In this document: positions 24,983-34,005 of the stretch, piece by piece
How positions within the stretch are numbered: position 1 is the first letter of the stretch
Layout of the letters: every line of letters starts with the position of its first letter
Source of the DNA: Clostridiaceae bacterium
GTDB lineage: Bacteria; Bacillota; Clostridia; Clostridiales; Clostridiaceae
Length of the DNA: 35,715 nt
NCBI GenBank assembly: GCA_014380625.1
Contig: JACMJL010000131.1
Span: 1-35,715 of the forward strand
Direction of reading: 5' to 3'
Position numbers and translations under genes: made by a program
Notes under the pieces: generated by a model
What the model saw: the letters and a program-made list of their open reading frames with translations, nothing else
The model's database searches: none
Told to the model about the DNA's origin: nothing

Positions 24983-25004
24983 GCCGCAGGTTGTAACCTG
25001 CGGC
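24983..25004 (+). repeat. GCCGCAGG hairpin repeat, copy B
   Basis: GCCGCAGGTT/AACCTGCGGC, a perfect 10-bp palindrome with a 2-nt centre. Similarity to the hairpin at 20987-21008 extends about 40 nt downstream (ACAAAGATATAAT and TTTTAAAGC in both). It lacks a T-run, so it is more a repeat than a terminator, though it sits 11 nt after the DUF2207 stop. Confidence 0.75.
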
Positions 25005-25184
25005 TTGTTAGTACAAAGATATAATATTTTAAAGCTTTAAACTATATGTACTAAATAAAGATAATTTACAGGACATTCTTTTATCATTGGGGCATTTCCT
25101 GCTACATCATAAAAGGAATCAAAAAAATTTGATTTATCTACTTTATTCCCTCATAGGAATATATATAAAAATTAAGAATTTTAA

Positions 25185-25211
25185 GCCGCAGGTTACCACC
25201 TGCGGCTTTTT
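25185..25211 (+). terminator. GCCGCAGG hairpin repeat, copy C, with T-run
   Basis: GCCGCAGGT/ACCTGCGGC around TACC, followed by TTTTT. It lies 14 nt upstream of the left 29-bp direct repeat and would insulate the retron operon. Confidence 0.75.
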
Positions 25212-25224
25212 ATAAAGTTTATAA

Positions 25225-25253
25225 GGTGACAGGCACATGAGTTATGAGTTATT
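25225..25253 (+). repeat. Left 29-bp direct repeat flanking the retron unit
   Basis: Begins GGTGACAGGCACATG and ends AGTTATGAGTTATT. It matches 31928-31956 at 28 of 29 positions in the same orientation. The pair encloses the retron operon and ncRNA candidate. Confidence 0.9.
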
Positions 25254-25381: not shown

Positions 25382-28381
25382 ATGTTGAAATCTATAAAGA
25401 AATGGTTTTTCAGTTTAATTTCATCTTTATTTAAAGGGAAGAAAAGGATTAACACTGTATATCCAGTGTCAAATAAAAAGGAGTTTAATAAAGGAGGTTT
25501 AAGTGATATGGGTGAGGCACCTCAAAAAATATGGAAGAAGGGATATGCTCCATTAAGAAATGTGGTTTTATGGGGATGGGATGAGAATAATAATCCAAGC
25601 TTTCTAATTCTTTATGGTAGACATCAGTTTAGAGATATAAAAGAAGCCAGTTATAATATGCTTCAGGATGCTGTCAGGTATACTAGCTATACTGTATTCA
25701 AAGGAAAGCAAGGACATTTACCTTCCTTTAAAGCTGTAAAAATAATAGAGGAAAGTGGTTACGGCACAAAAAGGAATAAGGTACCAGCTATGTATTTAAA
25801 AAAAGGCATATCCTATAGTTGGTCTTGGAGAGTTGATAACAAATATATGATCAAAGAATTTCGAAATCTAGAACCTGAAAACCAGGTGATTTTCCCCTAT
25901 TCTATTTCACCATCCTATGCTGAGTACACTGAAAAAATAGAGACTCAAAATATTAATTTTAAGGCCTTCAAACTGGCAAAAGACCCAAATGAAGTTTTAA
26001 AGTTATTTGGGAAGTCAACTCGATATTCTGAACTCATCACTGATATAATGAGCCATCCTAATATTTATATTAGAAAAAAGCGATTGACAGAATTACTCAT
26101 AATGGATCCTCCAAAAGAAGTTTATATCCTACTTTTAGATATGGGAAGTACTGAAGTAATATCAGGTTTATTTCTGGAACTTGCAAAAACCAAGAAGTCC
26201 ATTTTGATTAAAGAAGCAAAGGATTTATTAGAGGCTGAAATGAAGTGGGCGGAGGATAACTATATAAAAGGCGTAAAGAGATGTATAAAGATATATTTAA
26301 ATACTTTGGATGAGAGCTTAAAGGCTAATAGAACAAGGTGGATACGTAAATACCTGTCACGGATGGATTTACATCTTACAAGTATAGATGGCAAGGATAT
26401 TCCCCCTGATAAAATCCTTGAGGGTTCTGCTTATAGAAAGTATGCCAATTCTGGTTTGCTAAGGGATTATTACTGGAGATATGACCGTAATATCAGTAGA
26501 AGCGTAAAATCTGAAATCCCTAGGAGATATGAAGTAGGACCATATTCTGATGGAGTGAGATTAAATCTTGTTGACTTTAAAAACACCATTCAGGAAGCTG
26601 AAATATATGAATTAGCTGATGTTATTGGAAAAATTGCCTATTATTTGGATGCACCTAGATTAACTTATAATTTAAAGGGCAGTGGTAGAATTAAAGCCTT
26701 AAAATATTTAAATAGATACATAATAAGGATTATTAATTCTTATGCTGAGAATAACCCGGAGAAATTCATGGAAGCTATGAGGCACTTATTAACTAGCTAC
26801 ACTGAATATGACTATGATTGTAAGTTTAAAGGTAACTTCCAATTTAATGAGATTTTAAAATATTATTTATATCAGGATTTTAACGAAAAACCACCGGTTG
26901 GTTGGGAAAATTGGAGCCAACGTCATAATTGGATGGCTTGTGACCAACTTATGGAACAGGAAGGTCGGTATGAGTTTATGAAGGATATCTGGGATAATCA
27001 TCTTGAAGAGGTAGCAGATATCGCCACTAAAGCACAGATAAAGCAAGTGATAAAACCCTGCTATTATATGTTAAAGCACTCTTTAAAAGCCCAGGAATAT
27101 ATAGAAAATATAAGATATCAGCAGTTAATCAATTTGACACTTGTAGACTATGAACCACTGGCTGAAATGTTTAAGGATATTCTTAAAAACAAGCTCCAGC
27201 AATTAAATACCTTTGATGCGGAATTAATGATCTATTTAATTGGTTCTTGTGATAAAGGAATCTGTGACCAAGCCATGGAATTTTTTAAGAGAACAAATGG
27301 ATTGTTTTCGGCTTCAGATATAGCAGATCTACTCTTTTTGGATAATCTTCAACAATGGGTAGAATTGTTGAAGCAAAATCTGATTTCTTTTGAGGGATAT
27401 CAATATGTGGAGTTTATTAGGCAAATTATAATCAGAGCAAGTAAGTTCATGAAACTAAATATTAATCTAGATGAGAATGTCAGAGAGGTGCTTTCAATTT
27501 CCACCAATAAAATACCGCAGGTTATGAAGGCTGATAAAATTAAATTAATAGCTGAACTAATTGCTACCACACTTAATGGACCAAAGTTACTAACTTGGAT
27601 TGCAACATTTATAGAAGAAGTAATTTTTTCCGTTCCTTATGAAGAACTTAAGTCTTTACTCTCAGAAATCGTTATACAATCAGTAACAAAGGTGGTTTCC
27701 TCAAGAGTTAAAAGAATTATTTCTGTTTTAGAGTCGATGAAGAACAGAAATCTACCAACAGATTCTCAAATTATAGATATATTGGAGCATGGTAGCTCTA
27801 AGATGATTAAAACATTATTTAGTATCATCCTAGAAAATAGTAAAGAACTTAACAATCGATTTGCAACCTTATTAATTATGTTTGAGTCAGAAGTAACTGT
27901 GCTTAATAAAAAGGCAGAAGAGGTTTTTGAAAGTATGCCACCAGAAAAACAAAAACCCTTGCATCTTATGATTATTGACTCTCCAGTAAGTAAAGCCTAC
28001 TCCTTTGGACTAAAAAAACTAGACCTAATTTACGGAGATATAATCCCTAAAGAGTTTATAATTCAAATGCTAGAACATAGTTCCACAGAAGTGAAAGTTT
28101 ATATATCTGATAAGACTAACAAAATCCTTAATAATTTTGGAAATGGAAATCAGGAAATTTTTATGTATTACTTAAAAACTCTCTTATTACTGCCCAATAA
28201 AGTTTCTAAGAGTAAGGATAGGGTTTATGCAGTTATTCCTAAATTTGCCCATAAATATAAACAGAAATTAGAAGAAATTGAAGGTTTATTACTGGATATA
28301 GGAGGCTCTAATATCATTATAGATTCAGAACGAGCCCTGGTTGCTCTTGCTAAAATCAGAGGGGAGGTGATGCTTAAGTGA
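25382..28381 (+). CDS. HEAT/ARM-like repeat protein of a retron system
   Basis: A 999-aa protein, mostly alpha-helical. The first 43 residues hold a basic/aromatic amphipathic stretch (IKKWFFSLISSLFKGKK) that may contact membrane. Residues ~50-190 form a mixed domain (VVLWGWDENNNPSFLILYGR and following). From about 200 on, helical pairs such as YSELITDIMSHPNIYIRKKR and LLLDMGSTEVISGLFLELAK recur to the end, as in HEAT/ARM solenoids. No catalytic motif seen. A second start at ATG 25508 has a perfect AAAGGAGG 9 nt upstream and would give a 957-aa form without the N-terminal helix. Its stop overlaps the GTG start of the SWIM gene. In type XIII retrons, as I recall them, an ARM protein accompanies a SWIM protein and the RT; its role as effector or scaffold is inferred. 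Confidence 0.8.
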   Translation: MLKSIKKWFFSLISSLFKGKKRINTVYPVSNKKEFNKGGLSDMGEAPQKIWKKGYAPLRNVVLWGWDENNNPSFLILYGRHQFRDIKEASYNMLQDAVRYTSYTVFKGKQGHLPSFKAVKIIEESGYGTKRNKVPAMYLKKGISYSWSWRVDNKYMIKEFRNLEPENQVIFPYSISPSYAEYTEKIETQNINFKAFKLAKDPNEVLKLFGKSTRYSELITDIMSHPNIYIRKKRLTELLIMDPPKEVYILLLDMGSTEVISGLFLELAKTKKSILIKEAKDLLEAEMKWAEDNYIKGVKRCIKIYLNTLDESLKANRTRWIRKYLSRMDLHLTSIDGKDIPPDKILEGSAYRKYANSGLLRDYYWRYDRNISRSVKSEIPRRYEVGPYSDGVRLNLVDFKNTIQEAEIYELADVIGKIAYYLDAPRLTYNLKGSGRIKALKYLNRYIIRIINSYAENNPEKFMEAMRHLLTSYTEYDYDCKFKGNFQFNEILKYYLYQDFNEKPPVGWENWSQRHNWMACDQLMEQEGRYEFMKDIWDNHLEEVADIATKAQIKQVIKPCYYMLKHSLKAQEYIENIRYQQLINLTLVDYEPLAEMFKDILKNKLQQLNTFDAELMIYLIGSCDKGICDQAMEFFKRTNGLFSASDIADLLFLDNLQQWVELLKQNLISFEGYQYVEFIRQIIIRASKFMKLNINLDENVREVLSISTNKIPQVMKADKIKLIAELIATTLNGPKLLTWIATFIEEVIFSVPYEELKSLLSEIVIQSVTKVVSSRVKRIISVLESMKNRNLPTDSQIIDILEHGSSKMIKTLFSIILENSKELNNRFATLLIMFESEVTVLNKKAEEVFESMPPEKQKPLHLMIIDSPVSKAYSFGLKKLDLIYGDIIPKEFIIQMLEHSSTEVKVYISDKTNKILNNFGNGNQEIFMYYLKTLLLLPNKVSKSKDRVYAVIPKFAHKYKQKLEEIEGLLLDIGGSNIIIDSERALVALAKIRGEVMLK

Positions 28382-30186
28382 AAGTTAATTATCAATATGA
28401 AAGTCCCTCAATGTGTTCCATGCAAGGAGATGAGACAATCCTTGGACTTAGTACTGATCTTTCTAGGGAAGAGAAGGTATCCTTTTCTGGGAAGCTAAAA
28501 CATCCTCTTATTTTCCGTGATGCAATGCTTATGTTGCGCAGTATTGTGGTGTCAGATATGGGGAAGAAAAAGAAAGAGAGACTTGAATTTTTTGCTTGGC
28601 TTGATGAGGAAATTGAAAGGCGAATGCTAAAACATGAACAATATGCACCAGGAGTAAGAGATCACTTACAAAAAGATATGAAGGAGTTGATAAGGGAACT
28701 AATACAAAATGATGCAGATATTACGAAGTTGAACCAAGTTAAAAGTGAGCTGAAAAAGGAAATTGATGGCTATGATGTTTGGAAGGACTATAACAAAATA
28801 GAAAGAGCTTTCTGGAAGTTTATAAGAGAGAGGGATCTTTCCCTTTGGATGGTATTGGATCCGGTTATAACGGTGCATCCTGACCAAGTTTCCTTTGAGG
28901 CGTTTTCTATAGATGAATCTACCTATGGATGCCTATCTATTGCAATGGAGGAGTTCGATTTACTTGAAAAACCCCAGTTAGGAACTACAAATATAGATTT
29001 TTCAGCTAAATTAGCTAAGGAAATGGAGAGGTTTCGTACCTATACAAAGGTAGAGTTATCTATAAATCCTGGGGGATTTGCAGTAGATACAGGTATAATG
29101 CCGGAGCATCTTGAAAAGAAAATAGATCTCCCAGAAACTTGGATTAAAGGCTTTAATCAAGTGTCATCAGCGGCAAGTCTGGGAGGAATAGATATTGAAC
29201 TGGCACCTGTGGATATGTATGATATATGTTCCTTTTTAAGAAGACATAAGGCTAAAATCAGCCCTAGATATATGAAATGGATATTAGAGCCAGGAAAGCC
29301 AGTGAAAATTGTGTTTGAACCTTTTGGTAAGGAGCTTACCCTTAAAGGGGTTTATACTGGTGAAAAAAGTCGGGAAGAGAAGATATGGGGAAGAGAGCGC
29401 TGGCTGGTCATTGAAAAGATAATCCCTATTTCAAAAACCTTTAAGATAAGATTACTTGGTTTTGGAATGCCTCAGTTTATCATGGCAGATCTAGGAACAA
29501 TGAAAATGACCATTGGTTTTTCCTCTTGGTCTTCCAATGATTGGGTGAAGGGAACTGCATTTAATATTTTAGGTGGATATATTGGTGATGGAAACTATGA
29601 GGAAGTTTATCCACTACTTAAAGAAGGTCGCTTTTTATCTATGGAAAGTATCTATCACAGCTTAAGGGAAACCTCAAAAGGTGCCAATAAAGCAGGCGTG
29701 GGTATGCTTTTCCGACGAGGTGAAGGGTATTATGATGCTATAAGTGAGACTATTCGGTTTAGACAATTATGTAATATTCCTATTGCTAAAGAACTATATG
29801 AGACCACTGATATAGAGTTAGAAGTTGAGAAACACCTGGAGGTGGGTCTGGAACATTTTAATCTTATGGTCACTCAGGATAAATCCTTTGTTGCCAAACA
29901 ATCTTTTAAAATTCCAAATACTAAATATAGAAACTGGAGATTTAATGGTACAGATGATTTCTCGAGAAAGCATGATTTAACAGAAACCCAGTTAATCATA
30001 GATCAGGACGGACAGATTTCAAAGGTAAAATGTAAATGTAGAGAATTCAATAAGGGACCTAGGAATATCTCAGCGCCTTGTTCTCATATTCTTGCTTTAT
30101 ACGTGACTTACTCAAAGTTTTCAAAGCTTAATTTAAAACCGGATTGTGAATATAAAATGAATGATATTATGGAGATGTTGTTATGA
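28378..30186 (+). CDS. SWIM zinc-finger protein of a retron system (WHSWIM-like)
   Basis: A 602-aa protein. The C-terminal SWIM finger C552-x-C554...C568-x-H570 is complete and expected to bind zinc and probably nucleic acid. The N-terminal 200 residues are charged and helical. The middle (about 240-500) has alternating strands and helices, including GGFAVDTGIMPEHLEKKIDL and GMLFRRGEGYYD, compatible with the winged-helix part implied by the WHSWIM name, but I cannot confirm that fold by eye. It starts with GTG after GGAGGTGAT, overlapping the ARM stop, and its TGA overlaps the RT start, so all three proteins are translationally coupled. It is the likely nucleic-acid-facing partner of the RT or its msDNA (inference). 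Confidence 0.82.
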   Translation: MKVNYQYESPSMCSMQGDETILGLSTDLSREEKVSFSGKLKHPLIFRDAMLMLRSIVVSDMGKKKKERLEFFAWLDEEIERRMLKHEQYAPGVRDHLQKDMKELIRELIQNDADITKLNQVKSELKKEIDGYDVWKDYNKIERAFWKFIRERDLSLWMVLDPVITVHPDQVSFEAFSIDESTYGCLSIAMEEFDLLEKPQLGTTNIDFSAKLAKEMERFRTYTKVELSINPGGFAVDTGIMPEHLEKKIDLPETWIKGFNQVSSAASLGGIDIELAPVDMYDICSFLRRHKAKISPRYMKWILEPGKPVKIVFEPFGKELTLKGVYTGEKSREEKIWGRERWLVIEKIIPISKTFKIRLLGFGMPQFIMADLGTMKMTIGFSSWSSNDWVKGTAFNILGGYIGDGNYEEVYPLLKEGRFLSMESIYHSLRETSKGANKAGVGMLFRRGEGYYDAISETIRFRQLCNIPIAKELYETTDIELEVEKHLEVGLEHFNLMVTQDKSFVAKQSFKIPNTKYRNWRFNGTDDFSRKHDLTETQLIIDQDGQISKVKCKCREFNKGPRNISAPCSHILALYVTYSKFSKLNLKPDCEYKMNDIMEMLL

Positions 30187-31664
30187 CAGAGAATAATGAA
30201 CTTTTGCAAAACAAAAAAGCAGACTACAGAGAAAGCGTGAACAACATGGGTAAAAAGGAATTTACTCTGTTAAAGATGCAGGAATATGGATTTTGGCCAA
30301 AGGATTTACCTACGCCTTACGAAAGGCAAGATGACGAAACACCGGAACAACATAAGGAAAGGCAAACTCTTTTAAAGGAATACCAAAAAATAATTGATAA
30401 TATTGCAAAGTTATATGAGCAAAAGGATGAAATAAATAAAAGATTCCAGGAACTTAGAAAAGAATATGATGAGACCTGGGATGTAGATAAAATCAGGTTG
30501 GATATATCTAAAAAAATCATGGAGGAGTCCATAACTCGACGTAGCGAAAGAAAAAAACGGAAAGAGCTTGAAAAACAACAACAAGCAGAAATATGGCAGA
30601 AAAAAAGAGCTGAAGAAATTTTGTTTATTGGAAAAGGATACTCTCAACTGCTGCAGGATAGGTCAAGTGATGATAATAAATTATCTACACAGGGATTGCC
30701 TCTTATAAAAACTGATAAAGAGCTGGCAGAATTTCTTGGCGTGGAGTATAAACAGCTAAGATTCTTAGTTTATCATAGGGATGTAATTTCTGTTGATCAC
30801 TATCATAGATATACGGTGCCTAAGAGAAGGGGCGGAGTTCGAAATATAGCGGCTCCAAAACCAATGTTGAAAACTATTCAACGAAAGATTTTGGAGGAAA
30901 TTTTATCTAAACTAACCGTTTCAGAGTATGCACATGGCTTTTTAAAGGGAAAATCCGTTGTTTCGGGAGCACAGGCCCATATTGGACAACACACCTTATT
31001 AATTAACATGGATCTGGAGAATTTCTTTCCTACTATTACCTTTGAAAGAGTCAGAGGCATGTTCATGGCTTTTGGGTACTCTGGCTATATTTCATCCTTG
31101 CTAGCAATGCTTTGTACCTATTGTGAACGTATGGCTATAGAGGTCAGGGGAGAAATAAGATATGTGAAAACATCACCAAGAATCCTGCCCCAAGGCTCTC
31201 CAGCAAGTCCTATGATTACTAATATAATTTGTGTGAAACTTGATAGAAGATTAAGTGGCTTAGCAGAGAGAACCGGCTATATTTACACAAGATATGCAGA
31301 TGATATGAGTTTTAGTTTGAAAGAAGAGAATTATATGGATGAAGGGAAATTATGTGGTTTGGTTTCAAAAATAGTAAATGAAGAAGGTTTTAAACTCAAT
31401 AAAACTAAAACCAGATTTTTACGAAAAAATAATCGTCAGTGCATTACGGGAATTGTTATTAATAGTGAACAACTTGGTGTACCTAGAAAATGGATACGAG
31501 CCTTTAGGGCGGCTGTTCATAATGCCAATAAATTAAAACTTACTGGAACTGTGCCTTCAAAAGTGAAAAATGAAATATCAGGAATGGCAGCATGGGCAAA
31601 AAGTGTTAATGCTGAAAGGTATAAAGAGGTCATTGCTGCGGCTATAGCGGTGATACAAGATTAA
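30183..31664 (+). CDS. Retron-type reverse transcriptase with coiled-coil N-terminus
   Basis: A 493-aa RT. The palm motifs are clear: motif A D277-L-E-N-F-F-P-T-I, the LPQGSPASP block, the catalytic Y371-A-D-D374, and I421-T-G423, which matches the V-T-G of retron RTs. GAQAH before motif A corresponds to the retron N-A-x-x-H. No maturase, integrase or RNase H domain is present, which argues against a group II intron or retroelement. Residues 1-175 form a charged, helical extension (about 50-150 is strongly coiled-coil, e.g. RSERKKRKELEKQQQAEI) not present in the usual ~320-aa retron RTs. The structured RNA element 50 nt downstream is the proposed template. It would make multicopy single-stranded DNA joined to RNA. 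Confidence 0.93.
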   Translation: MTENNELLQNKKADYRESVNNMGKKEFTLLKMQEYGFWPKDLPTPYERQDDETPEQHKERQTLLKEYQKIIDNIAKLYEQKDEINKRFQELRKEYDETWDVDKIRLDISKKIMEESITRRSERKKRKELEKQQQAEIWQKKRAEEILFIGKGYSQLLQDRSSDDNKLSTQGLPLIKTDKELAEFLGVEYKQLRFLVYHRDVISVDHYHRYTVPKRRGGVRNIAAPKPMLKTIQRKILEEILSKLTVSEYAHGFLKGKSVVSGAQAHIGQHTLLINMDLENFFPTITFERVRGMFMAFGYSGYISSLLAMLCTYCERMAIEVRGEIRYVKTSPRILPQGSPASPMITNIICVKLDRRLSGLAERTGYIYTRYADDMSFSLKEENYMDEGKLCGLVSKIVNEEGFKLNKTKTRFLRKNNRQCITGIVINSEQLGVPRKWIRAFRAAVHNANKLKLTGTVPSKVKNEISGMAAWAKSVNAERYKEVIAAAIAVIQD

Positions 31665-31675
31665 TAATATATAAC

Positions 31676-31704
31676 TTGAATTTACATTTTTAATATGGTA
31701 TAAT
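31676..31704 (+). promoter_or_regulatory. Promoter of the candidate retron ncRNA
   Basis: TTGAAT at 31676-31681, a 17-nt spacer, and TATAAT at 31699-31704. Transcription would start near 31711, 17 nt before the a1 arm. No ORF follows for 400 nt, which fits an RNA gene. Confidence 0.8.
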
Positions 31705-31710
31705 TTTACA

Positions 31711-31925
31711 TAGATTAAAAGAGCAGTAATATACTCCTTGGCCTTTATACCTCGGCGCTGCGCCGCGGTTGAGATTTACCATACATACATCATCAGGTTC
31801 TGCGCAATTCGCTTCGCTACTACTACTGTGCCCATTTAAAAAGGATCCTTCGGTTTTGGGACAGTAGTAGTGCTACGCTGAAGTGTCAAAACCAGATAGG
31901 AGAGTAGTTAGCAAGGAGTCTATTG
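31711..31925 (+). ncRNA. Candidate retron msr-msd RNA, downstream of the RT
   Basis: A GC-rich, highly structured island in AT-rich DNA. Arms a1 (31728-31740, AATATACTCCTTG) and a2 (31912-31924, CAAGGAGTCTATT) are complementary at 12 of 13 positions and enclose the rest, as in retron ncRNAs. Next to a1 is G31741, a possible branching guanosine. An msr-like hairpin lies at 49-69 of this block (31749-31769: C53-C66 side arms CGGCG/CGCCG with one mismatch below). The long msd-like hairpin is 31810-31885: lower stem CGCTTC/GAAGTG, upper stem ACTACTACTGT/ACAGTAGTAGT (11 bp), then CCCA/TGGG and an A/T stem around a GGATCC loop. The order a1-msr-msd-a2 is on the plus strand behind a good promoter. 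That it is the RT template is inferred. Confidence 0.75.
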
Positions 31926-31927
31926 TT

Positions 31928-31956
31928 GGTGACAGTCACATGAGTTATGAGTTATT
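31928..31956 (+). repeat. Right 29-bp direct repeat flanking the retron unit
   Basis: Begins GGTGACAGTCACATG and ends AGTTATGAGTTATT, one substitution from the left copy. It lies 3 nt beyond the a2 arm of the ncRNA candidate, so it marks the 3' edge of the unit closely. Confidence 0.9.
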
Positions 31957-32000
31957 AAAACACCTGTATTTGGTAATGTTATCAAATACAGGTGTTTTTC
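31957..32000 (+). terminator. Terminator after the retron unit
   Basis: AAAACACCTGTATTTG pairs perfectly with CAAATACAGGTGTTTT over a 10-nt loop, then TT. It would end the ncRNA and operon transcripts before blaI. Confidence 0.9.
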
Positions 32001-32036
32001 ATGAATAAAAAAACATACTAAAATTGTAAAAATATG

Positions 32037-32090
32037 TTGACTAATCCAAATTACAGTTGTAAACTTAAGATAGCAATTACAAACGTAAAC
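32037..32090 (+). promoter_or_regulatory. Promoter and two BlaI/MecI-type operators
   Basis: TTGACT at 32037-32042 and TAAACT at 32060-32065 with 17-nt spacing. Operator 1 (ATTACAGTTGTAAAC, 32050-32064) covers the -10. Operator 2 (ATTACAAACGTAAAC, 32076-32090) lies downstream. Both fit the TACAnnTGTA pattern of BlaI/MecI boxes, the second imperfectly. Confidence 0.8.
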
Positions 32091-32110
32091 GAAATGGAGG
32101 TAGAATAATA

Positions 32111-32494
32111 ATGGGTGAAATTCCAAAAATATCAAATGCTGAATGGGAAGTAATGAAAATAATATGGAATCATTCTGAGATAACATCAATCAATATTATT
32201 CAGGAATTAAAGGATAAAGCAGCGTGGAAACCTGCTACGGTTAAAACTCTAATTAACAGATTATTAAATAAGAATGCAATTGGGTTTAATAAATCAGGTA
32301 CTGAATATATATATTTTCCTTTGTTGGCAGAAGAGGAATGTATAAAATCAGAAAGTCAGTCCTTTATTAATAGAGTATTTAATGGTTCTATGAAATCAAT
32401 GCTCTTAAACTTTGTTGAATCAAAGGAGATATCTGAAATGGATATAAATGAATTGAAAAACATACTAAACCAATCAAGTAAAAAGGAAGGTTGA
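32111..32494 (+). CDS. BlaI/MecI family transcriptional repressor
   Basis: A 127-aa winged-helix repressor. ISNAEWEVMKIIWNHSEITS at 7-26 is the signature N-terminus, followed by the recognition region WKPATVKTLINRLLNKNAIG and the wing NKSGTEYIYFPL. The C-terminal helices dimerise and include the region cleaved by BlaR1 in other systems (around the SFINRVFNGS segment). RBS TGGAGG precedes the ATG. Two matching operators lie upstream, so autorepression is expected. The M56 protease gene follows with overlapping or nearly overlapping reading frames. No beta-lactamase gene is present in the window, so the real target may be envelope-stress related. Confidence 0.92.
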   Translation: MGEIPKISNAEWEVMKIIWNHSEITSINIIQELKDKAAWKPATVKTLINRLLNKNAIGFNKSGTEYIYFPLLAEEECIKSESQSFINRVFNGSMKSMLLNFVESKEISEMDINELKNILNQSSKKEG

Positions 32495-32499
32495 GGTTT

Positions 32500-34005
32500 A
32501 TGGGTATTTTAAATGTTTTTGAGCTGATTCTACTTTCATCCTTAATTGGTAGCTTAATTTTAATAATCATATTAATTATTAAAAGTATATTTAGAGATAA
32601 ATTAAATTCTACCTTTCACTATTATATATGGCTAATATTGCTCATAAAACTAATAATTCCTGTTGGACCACAATCCCCTTTAAATATTTCTAATATATAT
32701 ACAAATTCTTATGTACAGAGTATCACAAATACAAACACACAAATAAATCCTTCAAAACAACTCGAAACTACAGATTTGGATGGTGAAACATCAATAAGTC
32801 CAAGTAATAGTGTTAGGAGCCTACCTTTAATAAGTAAAGTTAATATTGAAAAAGTGTTCTGTTTCATATGGATATTTGGAACTCTATTATTAATAGGGGA
32901 ATTAGGTATAGGATATAAAAAACTTAAAAGTATTGTTGACTCTTCTATAAAAGATATAAACAGTGGACATAAAGAAATTTTATATACTTGTATGAAAGTT
33001 ATGAATATAAGAACTCAGGTAGAACTATCCTATTCTGAAAAAATAAGTAGTCCTTCTTTATGTGGGATTCTTAAACCAAAGATATTAATTCCAGTAATTG
33101 TAGCAGCCAATGTTTCTGATGAGGAGTTTAAGTATATTATAATGCATGAGTTAACTCACTTTAAAAGTAGGGACATATTTATTAATTTGATCGTAACTTT
33201 ATTAACTAGGGTTTACTGGTTTAATCCAATTTTGATATATGGTTTCCATAAAATGAGACAAGACTGTGAAATTTCCTGTGATGGTCAAGCTATTTCTTAT
33301 TTAGAGGATGGGAAAAACCTTCAATATGGAAACGCAATAATTAGAGTATTGGAGTTAGGTGGTAAAGGCAATAGACTTATGGGTACTACATCAATGGTTA
33401 TGAATAGTTCTGAAATAAAAAGGAGAATTGTTATGATTTCAAAATATAAGAAGGTAAATATTAAAAATATATTATTAGGTGCTATCATCGTAGTTATTAT
33501 AGGTGGCTTAGGAATAGCATTAAACACTTCAAAATCAAAGACACAAGAAAAAAGACCAGTTGCCCTTGCTGAAGAATTTGTTAGAAACATCTATACAGTA
33601 GATGCAAAAAAAGTTGCTGAGTTTAAGAAATTTTATACCACAAATGTATACAGTGAAGAATATATGAAGATTTATCAGTCCCTTGATAAAAACATAGAAC
33701 CTTTAATGACAAAAGAAGGGTATGAAGCTATTACAGCCAATACATTCAATTCGGTAACTACGAGAATCTGTGATGCTGGTAATTATACCGCACAGGTTAC
33801 AGATTTTTCTTTAGATAAAAACGTGTACGGAGAGAATGAAGATAAAGTAAGATATCATTATGAAGTTAAATTGAAGTTTATCTCTTCTGATGGGAAGATC
33901 GAAAAAGCAGATGTATCAAAGGGAGCTGTAGAACTTTTAAAAGAAAATGGTCAATGGAAAGTGTGGATATTTACTATAATTGAATTTCCTAAATTATATA
34001 AATAG
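32500..34005 (+). CDS. BlaR1-like M56 family metallopeptidase
   Basis: A 501-aa membrane protease that would cleave the BlaI repressor. Helices are at about 8-30, 33-50, 110-130 and 322-340. The zinc motif H216-E217-L-T-H220 with E-I-S-C-D further on gives the M56 active site. The C-terminal 155 residues (LAEEFVRNIYTVDAKKVAEF to KVWIFTIIEFPKLYK) are an NTF2-like/DUF4829-type domain outside the membrane, replacing the penicillin-binding sensor of true BlaR1, so the signal is probably not a beta-lactam. I chose ATG 32500 because AAGGAAGG is 11 nt upstream; a TTG at 32491 overlaps the repressor stop but is too close to the RBS. Confidence 0.88.
   Translation: MGILNVFELILLSSLIGSLILIIILIIKSIFRDKLNSTFHYYIWLILLIKLIIPVGPQSPLNISNIYTNSYVQSITNTNTQINPSKQLETTDLDGETSISPSNSVRSLPLISKVNIEKVFCFIWIFGTLLLIGELGIGYKKLKSIVDSSIKDINSGHKEILYTCMKVMNIRTQVELSYSEKISSPSLCGILKPKILIPVIVAANVSDEEFKYIIMHELTHFKSRDIFINLIVTLLTRVYWFNPILIYGFHKMRQDCEISCDGQAISYLEDGKNLQYGNAIIRVLELGGKGNRLMGTTSMVMNSSEIKRRIVMISKYKKVNIKNILLGAIIVVIIGGLGIALNTSKSKTQEKRPVALAEEFVRNIYTVDAKKVAEFKKFYTTNVYSEEYMKIYQSLDKNIEPLMTKEGYEAITANTFNSVTTRICDAGNYTAQVTDFSLDKNVYGENEDKVRYHYEVKLKFISSDGKIEKADVSKGAVELLKENGQWKVWIFTIIEFPKLYK

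Follow-up and report, generated by a model that had tools for sequence, protein, structure and literature searches.

Retron-Eco1 (Ec86) and the other canonical retrons carry their non-coding RNA upstream of the reverse transcriptase (RT) gene in one polycistronic cassette. According to PMC6868368, the Ec86 RNA has the order a1-msr-msd-a2, and canonical retron RNAs have an msr hairpin of 7–10 bp, an invariant G at the inner end of a1 and one long msd hairpin. In the same source the priming G of validated retrons sits in an AGC context, validated msd stems generally hold mismatches or wobbles, and retron RNA searches are described as having looked upstream of the RT. In the DRT2 and DRT9 systems an RT is likewise paired with a structured RNA; these RTs are only distantly related to the one considered here. 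We know of no a1/a2 branched-priming layout in DRT2 or DRT9. Retron type XIII was reportedly defined in the survey of Mestre 2020. PADLOC, besides its protein models, has covariance models of msr-msd RNAs (PMC9252829).

The DNA analyzed here, referred to as the window, is a single stretch of 35,715 nucleotides. The same three protein models that make up PADLOC retron_XIII match all three proteins of its three-gene operon (25382–31664), which by these models is a type XIII retron and is predicted to be an anti-phage system. The locus resembles Ec86 in its RT family and in the a1-msr-msd-a2 order of its RNA, and canonical retrons in the msr hairpin, the invariant G and the single long msd hairpin. 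Unlike in canonical retrons, the RNA lies 3' of the RT, likely under its own promoter, and in other type XIII loci it is found divergent, on another contig or in arrays. The context of the candidate priming G is UGG instead of AGC, and the upper msd stem is almost free of wobbles. We hold it to be highly probable that the block at 31728–31924 is a conserved RNA gene travelling with the type XIII RT, most likely its msr-msd template for msDNA. The features of the locus are as follows.

25382–28381, + strand: WGR_XIII protein, 999 aa (PADLOC 78 bits, a weak and partial match)
28378–30186, + strand: SWIM_XIII protein, 602 aa (PADLOC 579 bits)
30183–31664, + strand: retron reverse transcriptase RT_XIII (PADLOC 536 bits), with YADD, region X GAQAH and region Y ITG
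31676–31704, + strand: likely promoter of the RNA gene, TTGAAT-17-TATAAT with TG before the -10
31728–31924, + strand: member of the retron ncRNA (msr-msd) family; covariance model match over 31718–31931 at 191.8 bits, the window sequence itself being among the 52 sequences from which the model was built
31728–31740, + strand: a1 arm (helix 1)
31741, + strand: candidate priming (branch) guanosine directly after a1
31749–31769, + strand: msr hairpin, 9 positions with a 3-nt loop (helix 2)
31796–31893, + strand: msd hairpin, predicted RT-DNA template (helices 3–5)
31796–31812/31877–31893, + strand: lower stem of msd, conserved (covariation helices)
31819–31835/31856–31871, + strand: upper stem of msd, variable (covariation helices)
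within 31796–31893, + strand: apical part of msd, containing GGATCCTTCGG (helix 5)
31912–31924, + strand: a2 arm (helix 1)
31957–32002, + strand: likely terminator, a 20-nt inverted repeat with a 2-nt spacer (31957–31998) followed by T's

A 29-bp direct repeat (25225–25253 and 31928–31956, 28/29 alike) brackets the whole cassette including the RNA and may mark a recombination or insertion boundary; relatives of this repeat are scattered in the genome, at 10 places when a 21-base core is allowed up to 2 mismatches. The operon is preceded by two hairpins of nearly identical sequence (GCCGCAGGTT..AACCTGCGGC), which lie at 24983–25006 and 25183–25206, 176 nt apart.

By sequence comparison the window RT, the sole RT_XIII match in its genome, is a member of the retron clade and not of the DRT clade. 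A search of the PDB with its profile returned retron RTs as nearest entries (Ec86 with E 3e-64, Ec67 also among the best), and Drt2 with E 2.6e-10. No NCBIfam model reached its cut-off, retron models included; St85 gave 223.8 bits against 235 and Drt2 41 bits against 390. Among 16 aligned RTs, region X reads GAxxH in 13, AAxxH in 1 and NAxxH in 2, with the A and H invariant and the N of NAxxH replaced by G or A in 14, and region Y reads VTG in 5 and ITG in 11. PMC6868368 gives precedents for both changes: two validated retrons also have the N of region X replaced, and V to I in region Y is known from the validated RT-Vch2. The gene order of the operon recurs in relatives. As for the companion proteins, the AF2 model of WGR_XIII (pLDDT 86.5) consists of an N-terminal beta region followed by a HEAT/ARM-like alpha-solenoid, and its Foldseek matches were mostly HEAT/ARM solenoids. 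Residues 36–386 of SWIM_XIII are predicted to adopt a PCNA-like sliding-clamp fold with a helical insert. The likeness to PCNA and DNA sliding clamps is one of predicted fold, at about 11% identity, and the insert and a C-terminal SWIM zinc finger, itself a weak match, distinguish the protein from those clamps.

When the window was searched with Rfam 15 at gathering score, only a 5S rRNA gene (247–364) was detected and nothing for the RNA block; around 31600–32110, lowering the threshold to E up to 10 gave only matches far below gathering scores and no relevant family. No tRNA genes were found in the window. The folding energy of 31726–31924 is low compared with shuffled versions (z = -2.9; 1 of 200 shuffles as low). 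A sequence-only reading of this stretch had described complementary ends, a small hairpin and a large one. The ends indeed pair at 12 of 13 positions (31728–31740 with 31912–31924), and the small hairpin was borne out at 31749–31769, with 9 positions, one mismatch and a 3-nt loop. For the large hairpin, the proposed 11-bp upper stem stood (31819–31829/31861–31871) and the proposed extent of 31810–31885 did not, the hairpin running from 31796 to 31893. The proposed a1-msr-msd-a2 order fits the covarying structure in relatives, whose same intergenic position holds a covarying RNA, as that reading would lead one to expect; this last comparison was run in part.

For the 24 copies located 3' of the RT, the proportion of pair cells that do pair is 93.8%, compared with 34.6–45.5% in six slid versions, and two-sided changes occur at 38 of 60 pairs, whereas shuffles average 18.1 +/- 2.3 and none of 500 reaches 38. 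In this set the a1/a2 helix alone (13 positions) has 95.2% of its cells paired and two-sided changes at 11 of 13; the apical helix 5 has zero two-sided changes and is uncertain. RNAalifold over 52 copies, comprising the 3' and divergent sets, gave 36 pairs, 27 of them with two-sided changes. Seven planctomycete copies fold alike, with two-sided changes at 39 of 81 pairs against 21.7 +/- 3.0 in shuffles. Because the upper msd stems fail to align across clades, the covariance model R1 was built without them and the stem was counted on clade alignments. Covariation in the divergent clade rests on the 52-copy RNAalifold and on comparisons of array units, alignment A7 not being counted. Together, these data show at the level of covariation that the a1/a2 pairing, the msr hairpin and the msd hairpin form. 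The G at position 31741 is kept in 52 of 52 aligned copies, in the context UGG in 51 and CGG in 1, and never AGC.

A scan of reference genomes for the RT yielded 66 loci, of which 55 (L003–L057) are close relatives. The RNA was present within the fetched stretch in 43 of the 55, and a whole-genome search added 8 of the remaining 12, so that 51 of 55 carry it. No RNA was found in L015, L020, L031 and L032, all of them MAGs; in two, a contig end interrupts the operon. Among 393 sampled genomes of the class to which the window belongs, full-length SWIM_XIII and a full RNA occur in exactly the same 6, and none of the 387 genomes lacking a full-length SWIM_XIII match has a full copy; a further 35 genomes of this sample gave only weak SWIM_XIII matches (E 1.4e-8 to 9.9e-4) and no RNA. 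Among 58 genomes of the family of L057's organism, SWIM_XIII was detected in 9 and the RNA in the same 9, and in 0 of the 49 others; in G064 and G075 some of the RNA consists of pieces truncated by contig ends. Screening of the two samples used stricter filters and scored few candidates in each genome, so degraded or weak copies may have been missed. The RNA thus co-occurs with the type XIII genes. One fragment of 38 bits was detected in G281 (L132), a genome in which no SWIM_XIII match was found: it keeps the promoter site, the a1/a2 ends and part of msr and has most of msd deleted, as a relic of the RNA gene would.

In the window and its genome, the covariance model found one convincing copy, the block at 31728–31924, and, apart from weak matches, none just upstream of the operon or elsewhere. 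The absence of an ncRNA before the operon, as claimed from the sequence, therefore held: the one other candidate upstream of 25382 is a weak match at 366–401 on the minus strand (36 bases, 17% G+C, 19.6 bits, E 0.009 over 67 sources) that looks like chance, and four further matches in the same genome all have E >= 0.4. Viral contigs contained no relative of the type XIII RT or SWIM protein, phage records gave no blastn match to the window RNA, and the RT matches in plasmids (527 records) were all less than 60% identical, the named ones among the 15 listed being other retron or general RTs. As side observations, L012 and L017 are type XIII retrons with the RNA on contigs labelled Lokiarchaeota MAG, and SWIM_XIII also has matches in Methanosarcina acetivorans, used as a control genome.

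The promoter proposed for the RNA was found as described, with TTGAAT at 31676–31681, 17 nt and TATAAT at 31699–31704, and in addition a TG before the -10; the site starts twelve bases past the RT stop codon. A best-of promoter score separated the 3' set weakly from shuffles (mean 9.6 against 8.4), and fixed patterns were used instead because this test is weak for that set. The pattern TTGANN-17-TAWAHT precedes 15 of 23 3'-located copies, 11–22 bases ahead of the modelled start, at a rate of 0.7% in mononucleotide shuffles, and TTGACW-16-TAYAMT precedes 20 of 20 divergent copies, at a shuffled rate of 0.005%; both patterns were picked after inspecting the sequences. Between the RT and the RNA, L011 has an ORF of 280 aa and L017 one of 779 aa on the opposite strand. 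These ORFs and the pattern in 15 of 23 copies support an independent promoter as likely, and the divergent position and the copies on other contigs in three MAGs further support an independent gene. Sequence patterns thus suggest that the RNA gene is likely transcribed from its own promoter. The pattern is absent in 8 of the 23 copies; among these, L033, L012, L053 and L028, which start 19–55 bases behind the RT stop, may be transcribed by read-through. A consensus terminator scan did not list the inverted repeat at 31957–32002.

The position of the RNA relative to the operon differs between clades. In the window and 23 relatives it is found 3' of the RT gene and on its strand (at 0.8–3.2 kb from the RT in L011, L030 and L017), and 24 relatives carry it ahead of the operon, on the opposite strand. 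In three MAGs (L023, L044, L051) it is on another contig, where the surrounding ORFs show no RT, and for L054 the contig of the RNA relative to the operon is undecided. The RNA-bearing contigs L116, L117 and L118, in three MAGs, are without the operon and place the RNA beside ORFs that by eye are metabolic or regulatory; these copies could be trans-acting or binning errors. Ten of the 11 distant loci L058–L068 were searched by an msr-motif pattern, L068, a fragment, being left out. Seven of the ten, all planctomycetes, have the RNA on the same strand, either 5' of SWIM (5) or between SWIM and RT (2). The pattern found nothing in L058, L061 and L067; in L058 the stretch between SWIM and RT does contain a long hairpin, one that lacks the msr motif. 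On a quick RT tree with SH-aLRT support only, the five position states need 6 changes (minimum 4, shuffled mean 26), and all 24 divergent rows fall in one 29-row branch (support 99) nested among 3' rows. Since the states cluster on the tree, the 3' place is common to a clade and not an accident of the window genome. These results show that the RNA gene has a movable position and copy number.

Copy number varies through tandem arrays, detected in at least 7 of 51 genomes: six units in G072, four in G073, three in G074 and two each in L035, L050, G064 and G065. The G073 array (locus L057) sits on a complete chromosome, NZ_CP097810.1; G070 (three copies) and G075 (two) were left out, their copies being on separate contigs. 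The six-unit array (L119, 5010–6398) and the four-unit array (L120, 7607–8530) have related units in the same order, some of which appear duplicated in one genome. Units from six of the arrays, compared in 27 pairs, share an average identity of 86% in the scaffold and 61% in the msd hairpin, and 26 of the 27 pairs differ more in the hairpin than in the scaffold. Eight comparisons between orthologous or duplicate units of G072 and G073 showed 24 stem pairs with two-sided changes, none with a one-sided change and 4 that were broken. A promoter-like site is found only before unit 1 in G072, G073, L035 and L050, before both units in G065 and before none in G074. To our knowledge, these would be the first multi-template retrons. 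The partial literature searched yielded no paper on natural tandem retron units and one reference to retron arrays for editing. The engineered arrays of Gonzalez-Delgado 2024 reportedly likewise use several retron units together; by the title they serve genome editing, whereas the type XIII arrays are natural.

If msd worked as RNA, G-U pairs would be tolerated in its stem; if it works as cDNA, a G-U pair of the RNA becomes a C-A mismatch. In 62 sequences from three clades (25 from the 3' clade, 30 divergent, 7 planctomycete), G-U pairs make up 8 of 1009 pairs in the upper msd stem, 140 of 548 in the msr hairpin and 64 of 957 in a1/a2. The contrast recurs in all three clades: in the 3', divergent and planctomycete sets respectively, the counts are 5/351, 3/517 and 0/141 for the upper stem, 58/215, 60/270 and 22/63 for msr, and 20/346, 35/499 and 9/112 for a1/a2. 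The methods of assigning pairs differed among the three parts, the msr pairs being taken from a fixed 9-position hairpin and the msd pairs from RNAfold, and the sequences are related; Fisher values therefore overstate the significance. The 1x1 mismatches in the upper stem are 5 A-C and 4 others. G-U pairs do persist in the lower msd stem: each of the 24 copies of the 3' set has one, and almost every planctomycete copy has two. Judged by its pairs, the upper msd stem works as DNA, and the DNA-like pairing is limited to that stem. Upper-stem lengths are narrow (medians 14, 17 and 20 bp). Palindromic 6-mers, ACTAGT and ACCGGT among them, occur 18 times in these stems in the divergent clade against 7.3 in mononucleotide shuffles, a weak lead as the stems are related; they are not in excess in the 3' clade (2 against 4.4) or in planctomycetes (1 against 2.5).

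The strict pairing and the drift of the upper stem might instead reflect correction of an inverted repeat at the DNA level, through template switching as the DNA is replicated, with no part played by selection on msDNA; in that case the retron ncRNA would stand and the G-U argument would fall. Such correction would also give the excess of two-sided over one-sided changes seen between array units (24 against 0, with 4 broken). We consider it unlikely, however, as the msr hairpin on the same DNA retains many G-U pairs (140 of 548) and the pattern is found in three clades with narrow stem lengths (medians 14, 17 and 20 bp).

Two other readings concern the RNA as a whole. It could be a template of the RT in a DRT-like synthesis, protein-primed or templated outside the retron scheme, with no branched priming at the G; the structured ncRNAs of the DRT2 and DRT9 RTs and the missing AGC context would agree with this. 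The RT nevertheless matches retron RTs far better than DRT RTs, the a1/a2 pairing and the msr/msd order fit the retron scheme, and all three protein models are those of retron type XIII, which together make DRT-like synthesis very improbable. A structured regulatory RNA unrelated to reverse transcription, for instance a leader of the downstream BlaI/BlaR1-like genes (32111–34005) or a 3' element of the operon mRNA, would account for a strongly folded block preceding a regulator gene. Its co-occurrence with type XIII genes, the clade in which it lies at the operon's opposite end and on the opposite strand, the terminator-like repeat between the block and 32111, and the avoidance of G-U pairs in the upper msd stem all argue against such a role, to which we give hardly any credence.

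Several observations speak against the msr-msd template reading: the UGG context of G31741, the replaced N of region X in 14 of 16 RTs, the RT scores below every NCBIfam cut-off, the 4 of 55 relatives in which no RNA was found, the 8 of 23 copies lacking the promoter pattern, and the G-U pairs of the lower msd stem. Under this reading, the RNA would be transcribed from its own promoter at 31676–31704 and is predicted to end near 32000. Its ends pair as a1/a2 and its msr and msd hairpins form, as covariation shows. The RT would then bind msr, prime at the invariant G31741 and copy msd from about 31911 back to about 31785. The resulting RT-DNA would be roughly 110–125 nt long, with the upper stem as a strictly Watson-Crick DNA duplex. 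By the retron paradigm, the RT-RNA-DNA complex would hold both companion proteins in an inactive state until the DNA is disturbed by a phage activity; PMC12548924 presents methylation of the RT-DNA as a proposed trigger in some retrons. Most speculatively, the PCNA-fold protein may grip the msDNA duplex; this would account for a stem whose pairing persists although its sequence varies freely. We tentatively propose, as a possibility that we would not yet favor, that type XIII is a multi-template, clamp-gated class. One RT would copy movable, independently transcribed msr-msd units, as many as six of them served by a single promoter, into DNA hairpins that differ while their scaffold stays constant. 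The PCNA-like protein would grip each hairpin as duplex DNA, so that each unit would be a separate bait for a phage DNA-modifying or DNA-binding activity and arrays would widen the range of phages sensed.

By its parts, the system is a retron of known type, and the 3' position of its RNA may already be known. In the literature searched, seen in part and with Mestre 2020 outside its scope, the 3' position, the mobility, the natural arrays, the DNA-like pairing and the clamp fold were not found. The movable RNA gene shows where retron RNA searches confined to upstream sequence can miss, and its covariance model, for an RNA with no Rfam 15 match, lets type XIII RT-DNA be tested at once. The predicted clamp fold is a concrete starting point for studying an effector that Pfam hardly annotates. 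The lack of G-U pairs offers a way of telling from sequence alone which part of such an RNA functions as DNA, and the natural arrays would be useful both in the study of sensing and in producing several DNAs within a single cell.
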